The position numbers were made by a program, and so were the translations under genes. A DNA stretch of 64,000 nt from Affinundibacterium nitidum (GTDB lineage: Bacteria > Pseudomonadota > Gammaproteobacteria > Burkholderiales > Burkholderiaceae_D): positions 1 through 64,000 of the forward strand of contig NZ_JACOFZ010000003.1 in assembly GCF_014284155.1 (NCBI RefSeq), in the 5' to 3' direction. Shown one piece after another: positions 23,145-50,380 of the stretch (position 1 is its first letter; each line of letters begins with the position of its first letter). Below the pieces are notes generated by a model. It did not search any database. It was not told where the DNA came from and saw only the letters and a list, made by a program, of their open reading frames with translations.

Positions 23145-23160
23145 TGTGACGCAAATCACA
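23145..23160. promoter_or_regulatory. Crp-type site A, upstream of the type I secretion operon
   Basis: A perfect TGTGA-N6-TCACA palindrome, 81 bases before the ATPase start and 203 bases before the divergent BKACE gene. It is one of four such sites in the window. Binding by the Crp-type regulator at 36482 is inferred. Confidence 0.75.
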
Positions 23161-23362
23161 TTTTCAAGCAGATTAACATAGAATCCTTCCAAATTCCATC
23201 AAAGCTTAATAAATTCTTCCGCCGAATAAGCTATGTGCAGGTATTTTCCCAGCATTGAACTACGGTAGTGCGGCTTCGCGAATGTGAAGCCAGATTACAC
23301 TTCATTTCAAACGCAATAGCCTTTTCGATTAAAATGACGACAAATTTTTAATGTAAACAAAA

Positions 23363-24199
23363 ATGTCACCGCTAATTATTAACTTGGCACCAACTGGCAT
23401 GGTGCCAATGCCAACTCAAACACCATACGTACCTATCAATCCAAAAGATATTGCGGAAGTAGCGTTGAGGTGCGCAGAGCTTGGCGCTAGCATGATACAT
23501 ATTCACGCCCGTGCTGAGGATGGAACACCGTCGACAAGTGCTTCTATCTTCGCCGACATAATCTCCAAAATCCGCGGAAAAAATTCAGATTTAATCATTA
23601 CCGCGACCACTAGCGGAAGAATGGTAAAGGACGTAGAAGATCGCGCCGCTAGCTTATATCTCGACAAAGATCTGCGGCCTGATATGGCGAGTCTCACTTT
23701 AGGTTCAATGAATTTTGCGAAAGATGCGAGCGTCAACTCTCCAGCAGCAATTATACGCTTAGCTGAGATCATGCTCGAACGTGGGATCAAGCCTGAGTTA
23801 GAAGTTTTTGATCTTGGCATGGTCAATTTTGCCAAAATCCTCATCGAAAAAGGGTTATTAGCGCCGCCATATTACTTCAACATACTGTTGGGCAATCCAT
23901 CCACTGCGCAAGCGAATATGTTACACATAGCGATAATCGTAAACGAACTTCCTCCTAATTCGATCTGGTCGCTTGCTGGAATTGGTCGATTCCAGAAAAC
24001 TGCGAATGCTTTGGGAGTCGTGATCGGTGACGGCGTACGCGTTGGCGTCGAGGACAATATCTGGTTTGACGATGACCGCACCAATTTGGCAAGTAATGAG
24101 ATGCTTGTGGAAAGAGTAGTTAAACAATCGAAAGCCCTCGGCAGGAGCATAGCGACTCCTACTGAGGTGAGACAGCGACTCGGCATTACAGAACGGTAA
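23363..24199 (+). CDS. BKACE family (DUF849) beta-keto acid cleavage enzyme
   Basis: BKACE enzymes are zinc-dependent TIM barrels that exchange acetyl-CoA with a beta-keto acid to give acetoacetate and a new acyl-CoA. The founding member, Kce, cleaves 3-keto-5-aminohexanoate in lysine fermentation. Here H46 and H48 (in HIHAR) and E230 (in GVRVGVEDN) stand where the zinc ligands of Kce are. The length (278) fits the family. The substrate cannot be told from sequence. It is followed 3 bases later by a NeuD-like acyltransferase, an unusual partner for this family. Confidence 0.9.
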   Translation: MSPLIINLAPTGMVPMPTQTPYVPINPKDIAEVALRCAELGASMIHIHARAEDGTPSTSASIFADIISKIRGKNSDLIITATTSGRMVKDVEDRAASLYLDKDLRPDMASLTLGSMNFAKDASVNSPAAIIRLAEIMLERGIKPELEVFDLGMVNFAKILIEKGLLAPPYYFNILLGNPSTAQANMLHIAIIVNELPPNSIWSLAGIGRFQKTANALGVVIGDGVRVGVEDNIWFDDDRTNLASNEMLVERVVKQSKALGRSIATPTEVRQRLGITER

Positions 24200-24202
24200 A
24201 TC

Positions 24203-24883
24203 ATGAAACCAGCTTTAGTTATTTTCGGCTGCAGCAATATCTTGTCGGATATTTTTGATTGTGCGTTGGCCAATCATCTCGAGGTGGCACAAATTGTGTC
24301 GCACTTACCAGAGTCTGTTGGTGAACGCGACAGAAGCGTGCTTGAACGCGCTGAAGAACTCAGTCCATTTCAGAACATGCCAAAAATTATAGGCATAAAA
24401 GATTTTCTCCCAAAACCGAATGATCTCTACATATTGGGACCGACGACCCCGACGCGGGAAGTATTGGCAATAGAGCTTGAACAAAAATTTGGAATTCAAT
24501 TCACCACGCTTATTCACCCTACTTCCTATGTATCGCCGCTTGCTGCAATCAATCCGGGTGTATTTATCGGTGCGAAAAGTGTCATTGGTCCTGGCGCTCA
24601 ATTAGCTCAACACGTATTTATCAACCGTGGCGTGACCGTTGGGCACGACACACAGATTGGTGCTTTCTCTCGCATTCAGCCGGGGAGCAATTTGGGCGGA
24701 TTAAGCTGCATTGGCAAAAGGGTTACTGTAGGAATTGGTGCGACTGTGCTCGAAAGACTAAACATAGGTGACGATGCAGTGGTCGGTGCTGGAGCGGTGG
24801 TTACCAATGACGTCGATGCGAACGTACTGGTTGTCGGCATTCCGGCGAAGTTTAAGAAGTCCTATGCAGCAGATTCTCACTAA
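24203..24883 (+). CDS. NeuD/PglD-like acyltransferase with left-handed beta-helix
   Basis: A 226-residue sugar O- or N-acyltransferase. A Rossmann-like N-terminal domain (about residues 1-95) precedes hexapeptide repeats (about 105-215), for example GVFIGAKSVIGPGA and GDDAVVGAGAVVTNDV. Such enzymes move acetyl or other acyl groups onto sugars destined for surface glycans. It is in an operon with the BKACE gene and convergent with a glycosyltransferase, so a role in glycan decoration is plausible but unproved. Confidence 0.85.
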   Translation: MKPALVIFGCSNILSDIFDCALANHLEVAQIVSHLPESVGERDRSVLERAEELSPFQNMPKIIGIKDFLPKPNDLYILGPTTPTREVLAIELEQKFGIQFTTLIHPTSYVSPLAAINPGVFIGAKSVIGPGAQLAQHVFINRGVTVGHDTQIGAFSRIQPGSNLGGLSCIGKRVTVGIGATVLERLNIGDDAVVGAGAVVTNDVDANVLVVGIPAKFKKSYAADSH

Positions 24884-48279: not shown

Positions 48280-49259
48280 CCCAGGACCTCAAGCGCCTCA
48301 ATCTTTTTAAGCGCTGCTTTGCTAGGCAACTGTTTAACTGGATTCTTAACATGTTCTCCTAGCATCCATGCAAGTGTGTCTTGCAAAGGAATAGCTGGTA
48401 GAGCACCAATGGTAGCGATCAACTTTCTGGAATCTCCAACTAGCTTACGCACCTCATTGGCACGCACAAACGCTGGATTCACCTTAACATCAATACGGTA
48501 GCCCGCTAAGCTCTCAACCATAGCGATCACTTCACGCAAGGTGTAATCTTTTCCGGAGCAAATATTAACGGTTTCGCCACGCGGTATGAGTTGCAATAAC
48601 TCGCGATAAGCACGTGCAACGAAACGAACATCAGAGAAATCACGCGCAACGTCGAGATTGCCTAACTCGATGTGCTTCGCGCCACGTTTGAAATGGCTCA
48701 CAATTTTTGGCAAAAGGAAATTTTCGGATTGCCCTAAACCGGTATAGTTGAATGGCCGCGTAATGAAGATAGGGAGTTTATCCATCCATAAACGAGCAAC
48801 ATGTTCCATCGCCATTTTACTGATGGCGTAATCATTGGCGGGCATCGGCGCTTCGGTTTCTTTAATCACTTCGGCCGTTGAATTACCGTAAATGTTTGCG
48901 CTACTTGCTACCAAAATCGACCGCGGAGGTGTCTCCAACTTCGACAAAGCTTCAAGCAAATTTCGCGTGCCAACGACATTAATACGATAGATATCCTCAA
49001 CATTGCCATGCGCGACAAAAGAGATCGCTGCTAGATGCGCCACAATATCGGGCTGAACTTCGTTGACCACCGCCTGCAATGCAGCCGGGTCACATAGATC
49101 GACGTAATAAACGCCCTCTCCTAATGGTTCATTACCAAAAGCGGTCCCAAAAATCTGATAGCCACATGCTTCCAATTCGCGCGCCAAATACTCGCCTGTA
49201 AAACCTCGCAGGCCAGTAATAAGAGCGCGTGGGCGCGAATGTTTAGAAGGAATTGCCAT
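48276..49259 (-). CDS. rmd: GDP-6-deoxy-D-mannose (GDP-D-rhamnose) reductase
   Basis: An extended short-chain dehydrogenase that reduces GDP-4-keto-6-deoxy-mannose to GDP-D-rhamnose. The cofactor loop is [13 protein letters not shown] near the N-terminus, and the catalytic Tyr-Lys pair is YAISK. The ATG at 49259 (327 residues) overlaps the gmd end by 17 bases. A TTG further upstream was rejected. GDP-fucose synthase and GDP-perosamine synthase are alternatives for the same intermediate, but the sequence is of the reductase type and the setting is A-band-like. Confidence 0.87.
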
Positions 49260-50280
49260 GCGTATTTCGCTGAATGTCTGCGTCAACCATCATTTGGCAA
49301 AGCTGTTCTAAGGTCGTGGTCGGTTCCCAGCCCAGCACATCTTTTGCTTTTTGCGGATTACCAATCAATAATTCAACTTCAGCTGGACGATAGAACTTAG
49401 GATTTACTTTTACCAGTACTTTGCCAGTCTGAGCACAACGAGCGATCTCGTTTTCAGCAGCGCCTTCCCAATTCAATTGGAAACCAGCCGCCTTAAATGC
49501 CATCGTCACAAAGTCACGAACTGTTTCTGTACGATTTGTCGCCAGAACGAAAGTATCAGGCTCATCGGCCTGCAGCATACGCCACATACCTTCCACGTAT
49601 TCTTTCGCGAAACCCCAATCACGCTTGGCATCCATGTTGCCAAGTTCAAGGCAATCCAGTTTACCCAGCTTAATCTTCGCAACAGAATCAGTAATCTTAC
49701 GGGTTACAAACTCACGACCACGCAATGGTGACTCATGGTTAAACAAAATACCACTGCAAGCAAAAATGCCATAAGACTCGCGATAATTGATCGTCATCCA
49801 ATGGGCATACAACTTAGCCACGCCATACGGGCTACGTGGATAAAACGGAGTCGTCTCAACCTGTGGAACTGCTTGAACTTTGCCGAACATCTCGGACGTC
49901 GATGCTTGATAGAAGCGAATCTTAGGATTGACCACACGAATCGCTTCAAGCAAATTCAAAGCACCTAAGCCGGTGATTTCTGTCGTTGTGACTGGCTGTT
50001 CAAAGGAAACGCCCACGAAACTTTGGGCCGCGAGGTTATATACCTCATCGACTTGGGTCGACTGCATCAAACGCACACTAGAAGACAAATCGGTGAGGTC
50101 GTACTCCACCAAATGCAGTTGGGGATGATTTTGAATTCCTAATTCTTCAATGCGCCAAAAGTTCACAGAACTGGTGCGGCGGTACGTACCATATACGGTA
50201 TAACCCTTCTCTAACAGAAGCTGGGCCAAATAGGCGCCGTCTTGTCCAGTAATACCAGTGACTAATGCTTTCTTATTCAT
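49243..50280 (-). CDS. gmd: GDP-mannose 4,6-dehydratase
   Basis: Gmd converts GDP-mannose to GDP-4-keto-6-deoxy-mannose with bound NADP. The cofactor loop [20 protein letters not shown], the residues RRTSS, and the catalytic YGVAK are present, and the length of 345 is normal. It is the first gene of a gmd-rmd-GT-GT operon. A perfect Crp-type site stands 85 bases upstream, so this branch may be cAMP-controlled. Confidence 0.95.
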
Positions 50281-50364
50281 GCAAAACCTTTCGCCTAAGC
50301 GAATATTAATTTTTAGCTAATTTTAGCGCTATAACGAATGTTTTCACGTTGCGCCGACTTATTC

Positions 50365-50380
50365 TGTGATGAATATCACA
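50365..50380. promoter_or_regulatory. Crp-type site D, upstream of gmd
   Basis: A perfect TGTGA-N6-TCACA palindrome in the 204-base gap between gmd and pyrE, 85 bases before the gmd start. It is in the same orientation and at a similar distance as site A. Confidence 0.75.

Follow-up and report, generated by a model that had tools for sequence, protein, structure and literature searches.

In Sinorhizobium meliloti, sensing through the outer membrane barrel NsrA is described as increasing cyclic AMP (cAMP) synthesis by CHASE2 cyclases, which activates the Clr regulon (PMC13001267). These adenylate cyclases are CyaD1, CyaD2 and CyaK and Clr is a CRP-family regulator (PMC13001267, PMC5498481); its reported targets include a FecR-domain protein and a TPR protein (PMC5498481). 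Most CHASE2 cyclases of Campylobacterota are reported to cluster with FecR and TPR genes, in an arrangement made of a CHASE2 cyclase, a FecR outer membrane protein, a TPR protein and a cAMP phosphodiesterase (PMC9239204). The Caulobacter surface layer (S-layer) protein RsaA is described as relying on the RsaDEF type I exporter and an O-antigen anchor (PMC11026435). Since the S-layer protein is reported to represent 10-31% of cell protein (PMC11026435), cells must match the amounts of subunit, exporter and anchor. Here, we analysed a window of 64,000 nucleotides from Affinundibacterium nitidum (NZ_JACOFZ010000003.1, positions 1 to 64,000), in which a CHASE2 cyclase, a FecR protein, an outer membrane barrel and a Crp regulator are co-located with an S-layer-type gene, a type I exporter and a gmd operon. 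Four palindromic TGTGA-N6-TCACA sites in this window are probably operators of the Crp encoded among them, which would make the locus a self-contained cyclic-nucleotide circuit for S-layer building. The four candidate operators are as follows.

Operator 1, 23145..23160: TGTGACGCAAATCACA, perfect, 5' of prtD-hlyD-tolC (type I exporter).
Operator 2, 30992..31007: one mismatch, 5' of the S-layer-type gene, with a candidate -10 (TACTAT) 22 bases past the site.
Operator 3, 36407..36422: perfect, in the gap between fecR (minus strand) and crp (plus strand), with a candidate -10 for crp (TTTAAT) that fits the -41.5 spacing.
Operator 4, 50365..50380: perfect, 5' of an operon made of gmd, rmd and two glycosyltransferase genes.

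The three perfect sites and the single-mismatch site were all found at the positions given by the original prediction. It had placed them 59-97 bases before start codons and we measured 59-96 bases, an agreement within one base: 80 bases for prtD (start 23064), 59 for crp (start 36482), 84 for gmd (start 50280) and 96 for the surface-protein gene (start 30895). Dinucleotide shuffles of the window contained a mean of 0.09 perfect sites and none of the 100 shuffles reached the 3 observed. Perfect palindromes numbered only 4 in the whole genome (4.38 Mb, 80 contigs), where the reversed control pattern occurred once. Three of these four fall within 27.2 kb, a clustering matched by 79 of 200,000 random-placement simulations; the suggested comparison of this region with the rest of the genome therefore came out in favour of clustering for perfect sites. 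The fourth (C54:71273) sits within an open reading frame (ORF) of 1085 residues, and was dropped as a further target for this reason. Relaxed versions of the motif showed no enrichment. With up to one mismatch, the genome contained 82 sites against 78 for the reversed control, and with up to two mismatches, the window contained 29 sites against 35.7 expected. A wider regulon based on one or two mismatches was therefore dropped, the counts being not above chance. The pattern YGTGAY-N4-RTCACR was found 6 times in the genome and 6 times in the control, and four of the six genomic matches were the four window sites. The two extra matches are at C11:1677907 and C22:299780; another HTH_Crp_2 gene of this genome is located approximately 2.6 kb from the former (G000:C11:1677907-1677922, CGTGATGGATGTCACA).

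Comparison with related genomes indicated that the sites are retained at the same promoters. Orthologs of the local Crp with at least 73% identity (class A) were found in 8 of the 43 other Undibacterium genomes, and relatives with 40-44% identity and the recognition helix RETVTR (class B) in 11 more; one relative with 63% identity was found in another genus. Orthologs of prtD (at least 75% identity) were present in 21 of the 44 genomes, corresponding to the 20 with the regulator and G007 (65% complete), and all 21 carried a perfect site 5' of prtD; starts were placed in 19 of these loci and the remaining 2 were checked separately. In several genomes, prtD was preceded by tandem sites 37-39 bases apart. 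Among gmd orthologs (at least 85% identity, both strands read), 16 of 22 carried a perfect site: 8/8 in class A, 7/11 in class B, and G020. No perfect site was found at gmd in G007 and G041. The S-layer gene, when found by homology, was preceded by a site with up to two mismatches in 10/10 cases, 5 of them perfect, and in class A this site was often the palindrome CGTGATG-NN-CATCACG. Three more S-layer-type genes (in G002, G004 and G029) were located by their proximity to a site; they were excluded from this count and used only in the 13-row spacing table. An operator was found at fecR in 2/8 class A and 5/5 class B loci, and G004 and G043 had a perfect site in the fecR/cyclase gap. Only 2 of the 17 crp genes examined (own genome and G029) had an operator upstream, shared in both cases with the divergent fecR; the crp-upstream operator was dropped as a general autoregulation signal on this count. 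Across orthologous promoters, the half-sites were constant and the central bases variable.

The specificity of this distribution was apparent in 19 genomic stretches (648 kb), which contained 41 perfect sites and no reversed site. Thirty-seven sites were assigned, every one to prtD, gmd, the surface-protein gene, fecR or crp. The remaining four were found 101-102 bases before a DUF4214 gene (G002, G004) or at the end of a stretch (G040, G019). No operator was found at control genes of the same stretches (manC 0/16, wzm 0/16, wzt 0/16, rmd 0/15, pyrE 0/15, tolC 0/9), in a table that left out genes whose match started past residue 30 or with less than 150 bases upstream. The original prediction of one factor for the layer, its exporter and its polysaccharide was thus supported by operators conserved at the same promoters. 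Because manC, wzm and wzt had no sites, the polysaccharide part has to be restricted to the gmd-rmd-glycosyltransferase operon.

Beyond this set, we analysed the 80 loci that ranked highest for Crp similarity among 522, several of which came from genomes also present among the 19 stretches. They contained 59 perfect sites and no reversed site in 1.37 Mb, with at least one perfect operator in 43/80 loci. Six loci from Paraburkholderia, Caballeronia and Cupriavidus (L227, L235, L237, L238, L245, L258) had 1-2 perfect operators in the crp/fecR gap; queries for the S-layer gene found none at these loci, where the output of the regulon may differ. Aquaspirillum serpens is a classical S-layer organism. 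Its locus L224 (16.7 kb) encodes the Crp, FecR, CHASE2 cyclase and TPR proteins; it contained no perfect operator and one one-mismatch site, and S-layer gene queries were negative, so it was dropped as independent support.

A scan for -10-like hexamers downstream of 48 sites with no mismatch (up to two for the S-layer gene), using textbook weights, gave a single peak at offset 22 with a mean of 1.77 bits. The next best offset had -1.65 bits and the mean across offsets was -4.46. This peak places the operator centre at -41.5, the position of a class II activator. At prtD, GATAAT or CATAAT was found at a constant offset in 18/19 loci, the exception being our own genome (TCAACT). At the expected offset, the promoters of the window had a clear match for the S-layer gene (TACTAT) and a fair one for crp (TTTAAT).

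The genes of the circuit, and those it would control, are listed below.

36482..37186, plus strand: Crp-type regulator with a cNMP-binding domain, HTH_Crp_2 and the recognition helix RETVSR.
34862..36238, minus strand: FecR-domain protein (PF04773).
32835..34793, minus strand: CHASE2 sensor with a class III adenylate cyclase domain; Lys present, transition-state Asn replaced by Val.
31287..32708, minus strand: TPR and outer membrane beta-barrel protein, candidate outer membrane sensor.
26729..30895, minus strand: DUF4214 RsaA-type S-layer protein by homology, candidate type I secretion substrate.
21259..23064, minus strand: PrtD-type type I secretion ABC transporter.
19890..21443, minus strand: HlyD-family periplasmic adaptor.
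18533..19888, minus strand: TolC-family outer membrane protein.
49243..50280, minus strand: gmd, GDP-mannose 4,6-dehydratase.
48276..49286, minus strand: RMD-like GDP-6-deoxy-mannose reductase (GDP-D-rhamnose), matching 2pk3 (E 1.3e-41) and 6x3b (E 8.8e-36).
47113..48279, minus strand: glycosyltransferase (Glycos_transf_1) of the gmd operon.
45999..47108, minus strand: glycosyltransferase (Glycos_transf_1) of the gmd operon.

Residues 502-1125 of the DUF4214 protein (1388 residues) matched the RsaA lattice domain (5n97, E 5.3e-47), and the protein also matched the RsaA structure 6z7p (E 1.9e-39). By lattice-domain homology, the product of 26729..30895 is a predicted RsaA-type S-layer protein, which would form a two-dimensional crystal on the cells. 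A fold search with the AF2 model of its N-terminus (residues 1-260, encoded by 30116-30895) did not retrieve RsaA, and a profile search of the PDB with the N-terminus returned nothing up to E 1. With neither a fold nor a profile match, RsaA-like O-antigen binding by this N-terminus was not supported. The N-terminus of a Halomonas DUF4214 protein is reported to have been matched to the Caulobacter S-layer protein by SWISS-MODEL (PMC11970703). The fold of residues 1-260 was weakly similar to phycobilisome linker domains (best E 0.0076). In G039, the S-layer-type gene occurs twice (L056 and L161; merged positions 25697, 37910), and both copies have a perfect operator of their own, 97 bases 5' of the start. 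Directly 3' of the S-layer gene of the window is a perfect hairpin (26692-26717, arms GTGACATCGA and TCGATGTCAC), perhaps a terminator stem, which overlaps a one-mismatch site. No Rfam family was found in the window at gathering score. In the sugar operon, the matches of the RMD-like reductase to 2pk3 and 6x3b indicate that its product is probably GDP-D-rhamnose; its top match, 4lw8, is annotated merely as a putative epimerase. A small PIN-domain, VapC-like protein is encoded at 17429-17830 (PF01850, E 3e-18).

The original prediction linked the sites to a regulator with the helix RETVSR. This held: three proteins of the genome scored above the HTH_Crp_2 cut-off, and only the local one had this CRP-like helix. 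The local Crp matched PF00027 (E 1.9e-19) and PF13545 (E 7.7e-11), and its phosphate-binding cassette GE..RSA (G82 E83, R92 S93 A94) was unchanged in 20/20 aligned regulators. In E. coli CRP, Thr127 and Ser128 contact adenine; Ser138, in register with Ser128, was nearly invariant among the aligned regulators. The local protein scored 79.2 bits against the E. coli-type CRP equivalog NF008732, below the 266-bit cut-off.

The regulatory reading had to be widened, as the original prediction left out the input module beside crp, made of the CHASE2 cyclase, the FecR protein and the TPR-barrel. The order crp/fecR-cyclase-TPR barrel-S-layer gene was the same in the 7 other class A Undibacterium loci spanning it, and 69 of the 80 Crp-similarity loci had a CHASE2-cyclase homologue on the stretch that carries the regulator. 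The predicted model of the TPR protein (mean pLDDT 87) places a beta-barrel after the TPR domain, with fold matches including CymA, BcsC and porins at TM-scores by query length of approximately 0.3-0.4. Class III cyclases use two metal Asp residues, an adenine-specifying Lys and a transition-state Asn. The local cyclase retains the metal Asp residues and the adenine-type Lys (FADVRGF, IDKFIGD). In Undibacterium, the position of the Asn was occupied by Val in 8/8 readable class A cyclases (own included) and by Asn in 7/7 class B cyclases. Among the 80 loci, a strict motif expression limited reading to 22 cyclases (15 Asn, 6 Val, 1 Ile), and 5 of the 6 with Val came from genomes already in the Undibacterium count. 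In G029, the CHASE2 cyclase gene (L052, C53, approximately 9990-11730) was found in two frames; this genome is incomplete.

We therefore propose the following mechanism. The TPR-barrel and the FecR protein would relay the state of the cell surface to the inner-membrane CHASE2-cyclase, which would produce cAMP. The local Crp bound to cAMP would recognize TGTGAY-N4-RTCACA and, positioned at approximately -41.5 as a class II factor, would activate the S-layer gene, the type I exporter operon and the gmd-rmd-glycosyltransferase operon, the latter supplying GDP-D-rhamnose for a surface glycan. In our species, Crp would also act at the divergent crp/fecR region. A more specific version is possible and is put forward tentatively: a private feedback loop in which the TPR-barrel and FecR sense coverage by the S-layer or its glycan anchor, and the CHASE2 cyclase and Crp tune S-layer, exporter and anchor sugar, with the same operator recurring with diverged class A and B regulators and cyclases across many Betaproteobacteria.

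Several observations weigh against an activating cAMP-Crp circuit. The 48 sites used for the -10 scan were drawn from related genomes and cannot be counted as independent, and the fecR promoters peak at offset 20-21 instead of 22. In the window itself, prtD (TCAACT) and gmd (AACATT, one base off) have poor -10 matches. The gmd site is missing in 4/11 class B genomes, 37 of the 80 Crp-similarity loci had no perfect site within the stretch examined, and one-mismatch sites are not enriched in the genome (82 against 78, as above). In the regulator, E. coli CRP Thr127 apparently corresponds to Ala137, according to the alignment register. The local cyclase has Val where CyaC and CyaB have Asn, and two more distant cyclases of the class A clade have Ile or Val at this position. 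Finally, genomes with the regulator (20/44) were richer in perfect sites (Mann-Whitney P 1.1e-7; reversed control, P 0.91), and this co-occurrence is confounded by the locus as a whole being either present or missing.

Because Val replaces the catalytic Asn, the activity of the local cyclase may be low or absent. The local Crp could then own the operators and respond to a ligand other than cAMP from the neighbouring cyclase, such as c-di-GMP, cGMP or cAMP from another cyclase. Our genome encodes at least 2 further cyclase-domain homologues (C1:27765, C3:39674), all readable class A cyclases lack the Asn, and Bcam1349 is described as a CRP/FNR regulator that controls exopolysaccharide genes in response to c-di-GMP (PMC3584217). 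Against this stand the phosphate-binding cassette found unchanged in every aligned regulator, the frequent company of regulator and CHASE2-cyclase and the class B cyclases, which retain the Asn and use the same operator. We consider a different ligand unlikely, and judging from the sequences, the signal in the class A clade is likely cAMP from the local cyclase.

The direction of regulation was considered next to the ligand. Crp could be mainly a repressor or a roadblock at some promoters, for example that of its own gene. A second crp promoter (TTGACT/TATATA) lies 5' of the operator and is kept between our genome and G029 despite a different spacer. It need not depend on the operator, and local autoregulation may therefore be mixed. 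The S-layer, prtD and gmd promoters taken as a set have their -10 at the class II activation spacing, which argues for activation there and leaves a mainly repressing role at some promoters with a rather small share of our confidence.

Another Crp/Fnr-type protein could read the sites while the local Crp has another job. Two other proteins do exceed the HTH_Crp_2 cut-off, and crp itself had an operator in just 2/17 loci. The helices of these two proteins, LETVSR and PETFSR, do not have the RExxxR form. Perfect sites averaged 4.3 per genome in class A, 6.3 in class B and 1.5 in the 24 genomes without the local-type Crp, the last value being near the control background of 1.2. The 82%-identical gmd of G014 and G016, which have no class A or B Crp, had no site (best match, 4 mismatches), although this may be a different locus. 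Collectively, these data make another reader very improbable and favour the local Crp as the protein that would bind the four operators. That the palindromes are functionless chance or structural repeats, as the lack of enrichment of relaxed motifs and the genomic copy within an ORF might suggest, is hardly credible given the prtD site in 21/21 genomes and the counts against reversed controls (41 to 0 and 59 to 0, in sets with some genomes in common).

The E. coli CRP regulon combines a palindrome, a RExVxR-type helix and class II spacing, and the locus described here is alike in all three. It differs in that the local regulon is small, with no genome-wide enrichment of one-mismatch sites, and in the NF008732 score of the regulator (79 against 266 bits). 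Bcam1349 (BerA) of Burkholderia cenocepacia, another member of the Burkholderiales, is likewise a CRP/FNR activator of exopolysaccharide genes; it responds to c-di-GMP, and no link to an S-layer or a CHASE2 cyclase is given in the accessible part of the source (PMC3584217). The Campylobacterota clusters also bring CHASE2 cyclase, FecR and TPR genes together. They include a phosphodiesterase, seen nowhere among the scanned proteins of the window, and the excerpted description names no dedicated regulon. Caulobacter RsaA shares the lattice domain, the type I exporter and the nearby sugar genes; its N-terminal domain is unmatched by the DUF4214 part, and no cAMP-Crp control is described in the portion of the paper available (PMC11026435). 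In the openly licensed literature, searched mostly at the level of titles and abstracts, we found neither a link between an S-layer and a cAMP-Crp regulon nor a report of an S-layer in Undibacterium, and the available text of the Halomonas DUF4214 S-layer paper (PMC11970703) contains neither cAMP nor Crp. The NsrA/CHASE2/Clr system of S. meliloti is alike in its CHASE2 cyclases with an outer membrane barrel, its FecR and TPR proteins, its CRP-family regulator and the polysaccharide genes in its regulon. The outputs described for it comprise succinoglycan, further polysaccharide genes and infection control, with no S-layer mentioned in the accessible text, and in the present system the parts form one locus; our barrel is likened to NsrA by architecture, not by sequence. 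Each part of the locus thus resembles a known system, while no cAMP-type regulon dedicated to an S-layer together with its exporter and a glycan precursor was found in that literature. If the proposed mechanism is correct, freshwater bacteria would offer a circuit that can be put to the test, and the cassette of CHASE2 cyclase, FecR protein and barrel would gain an output.

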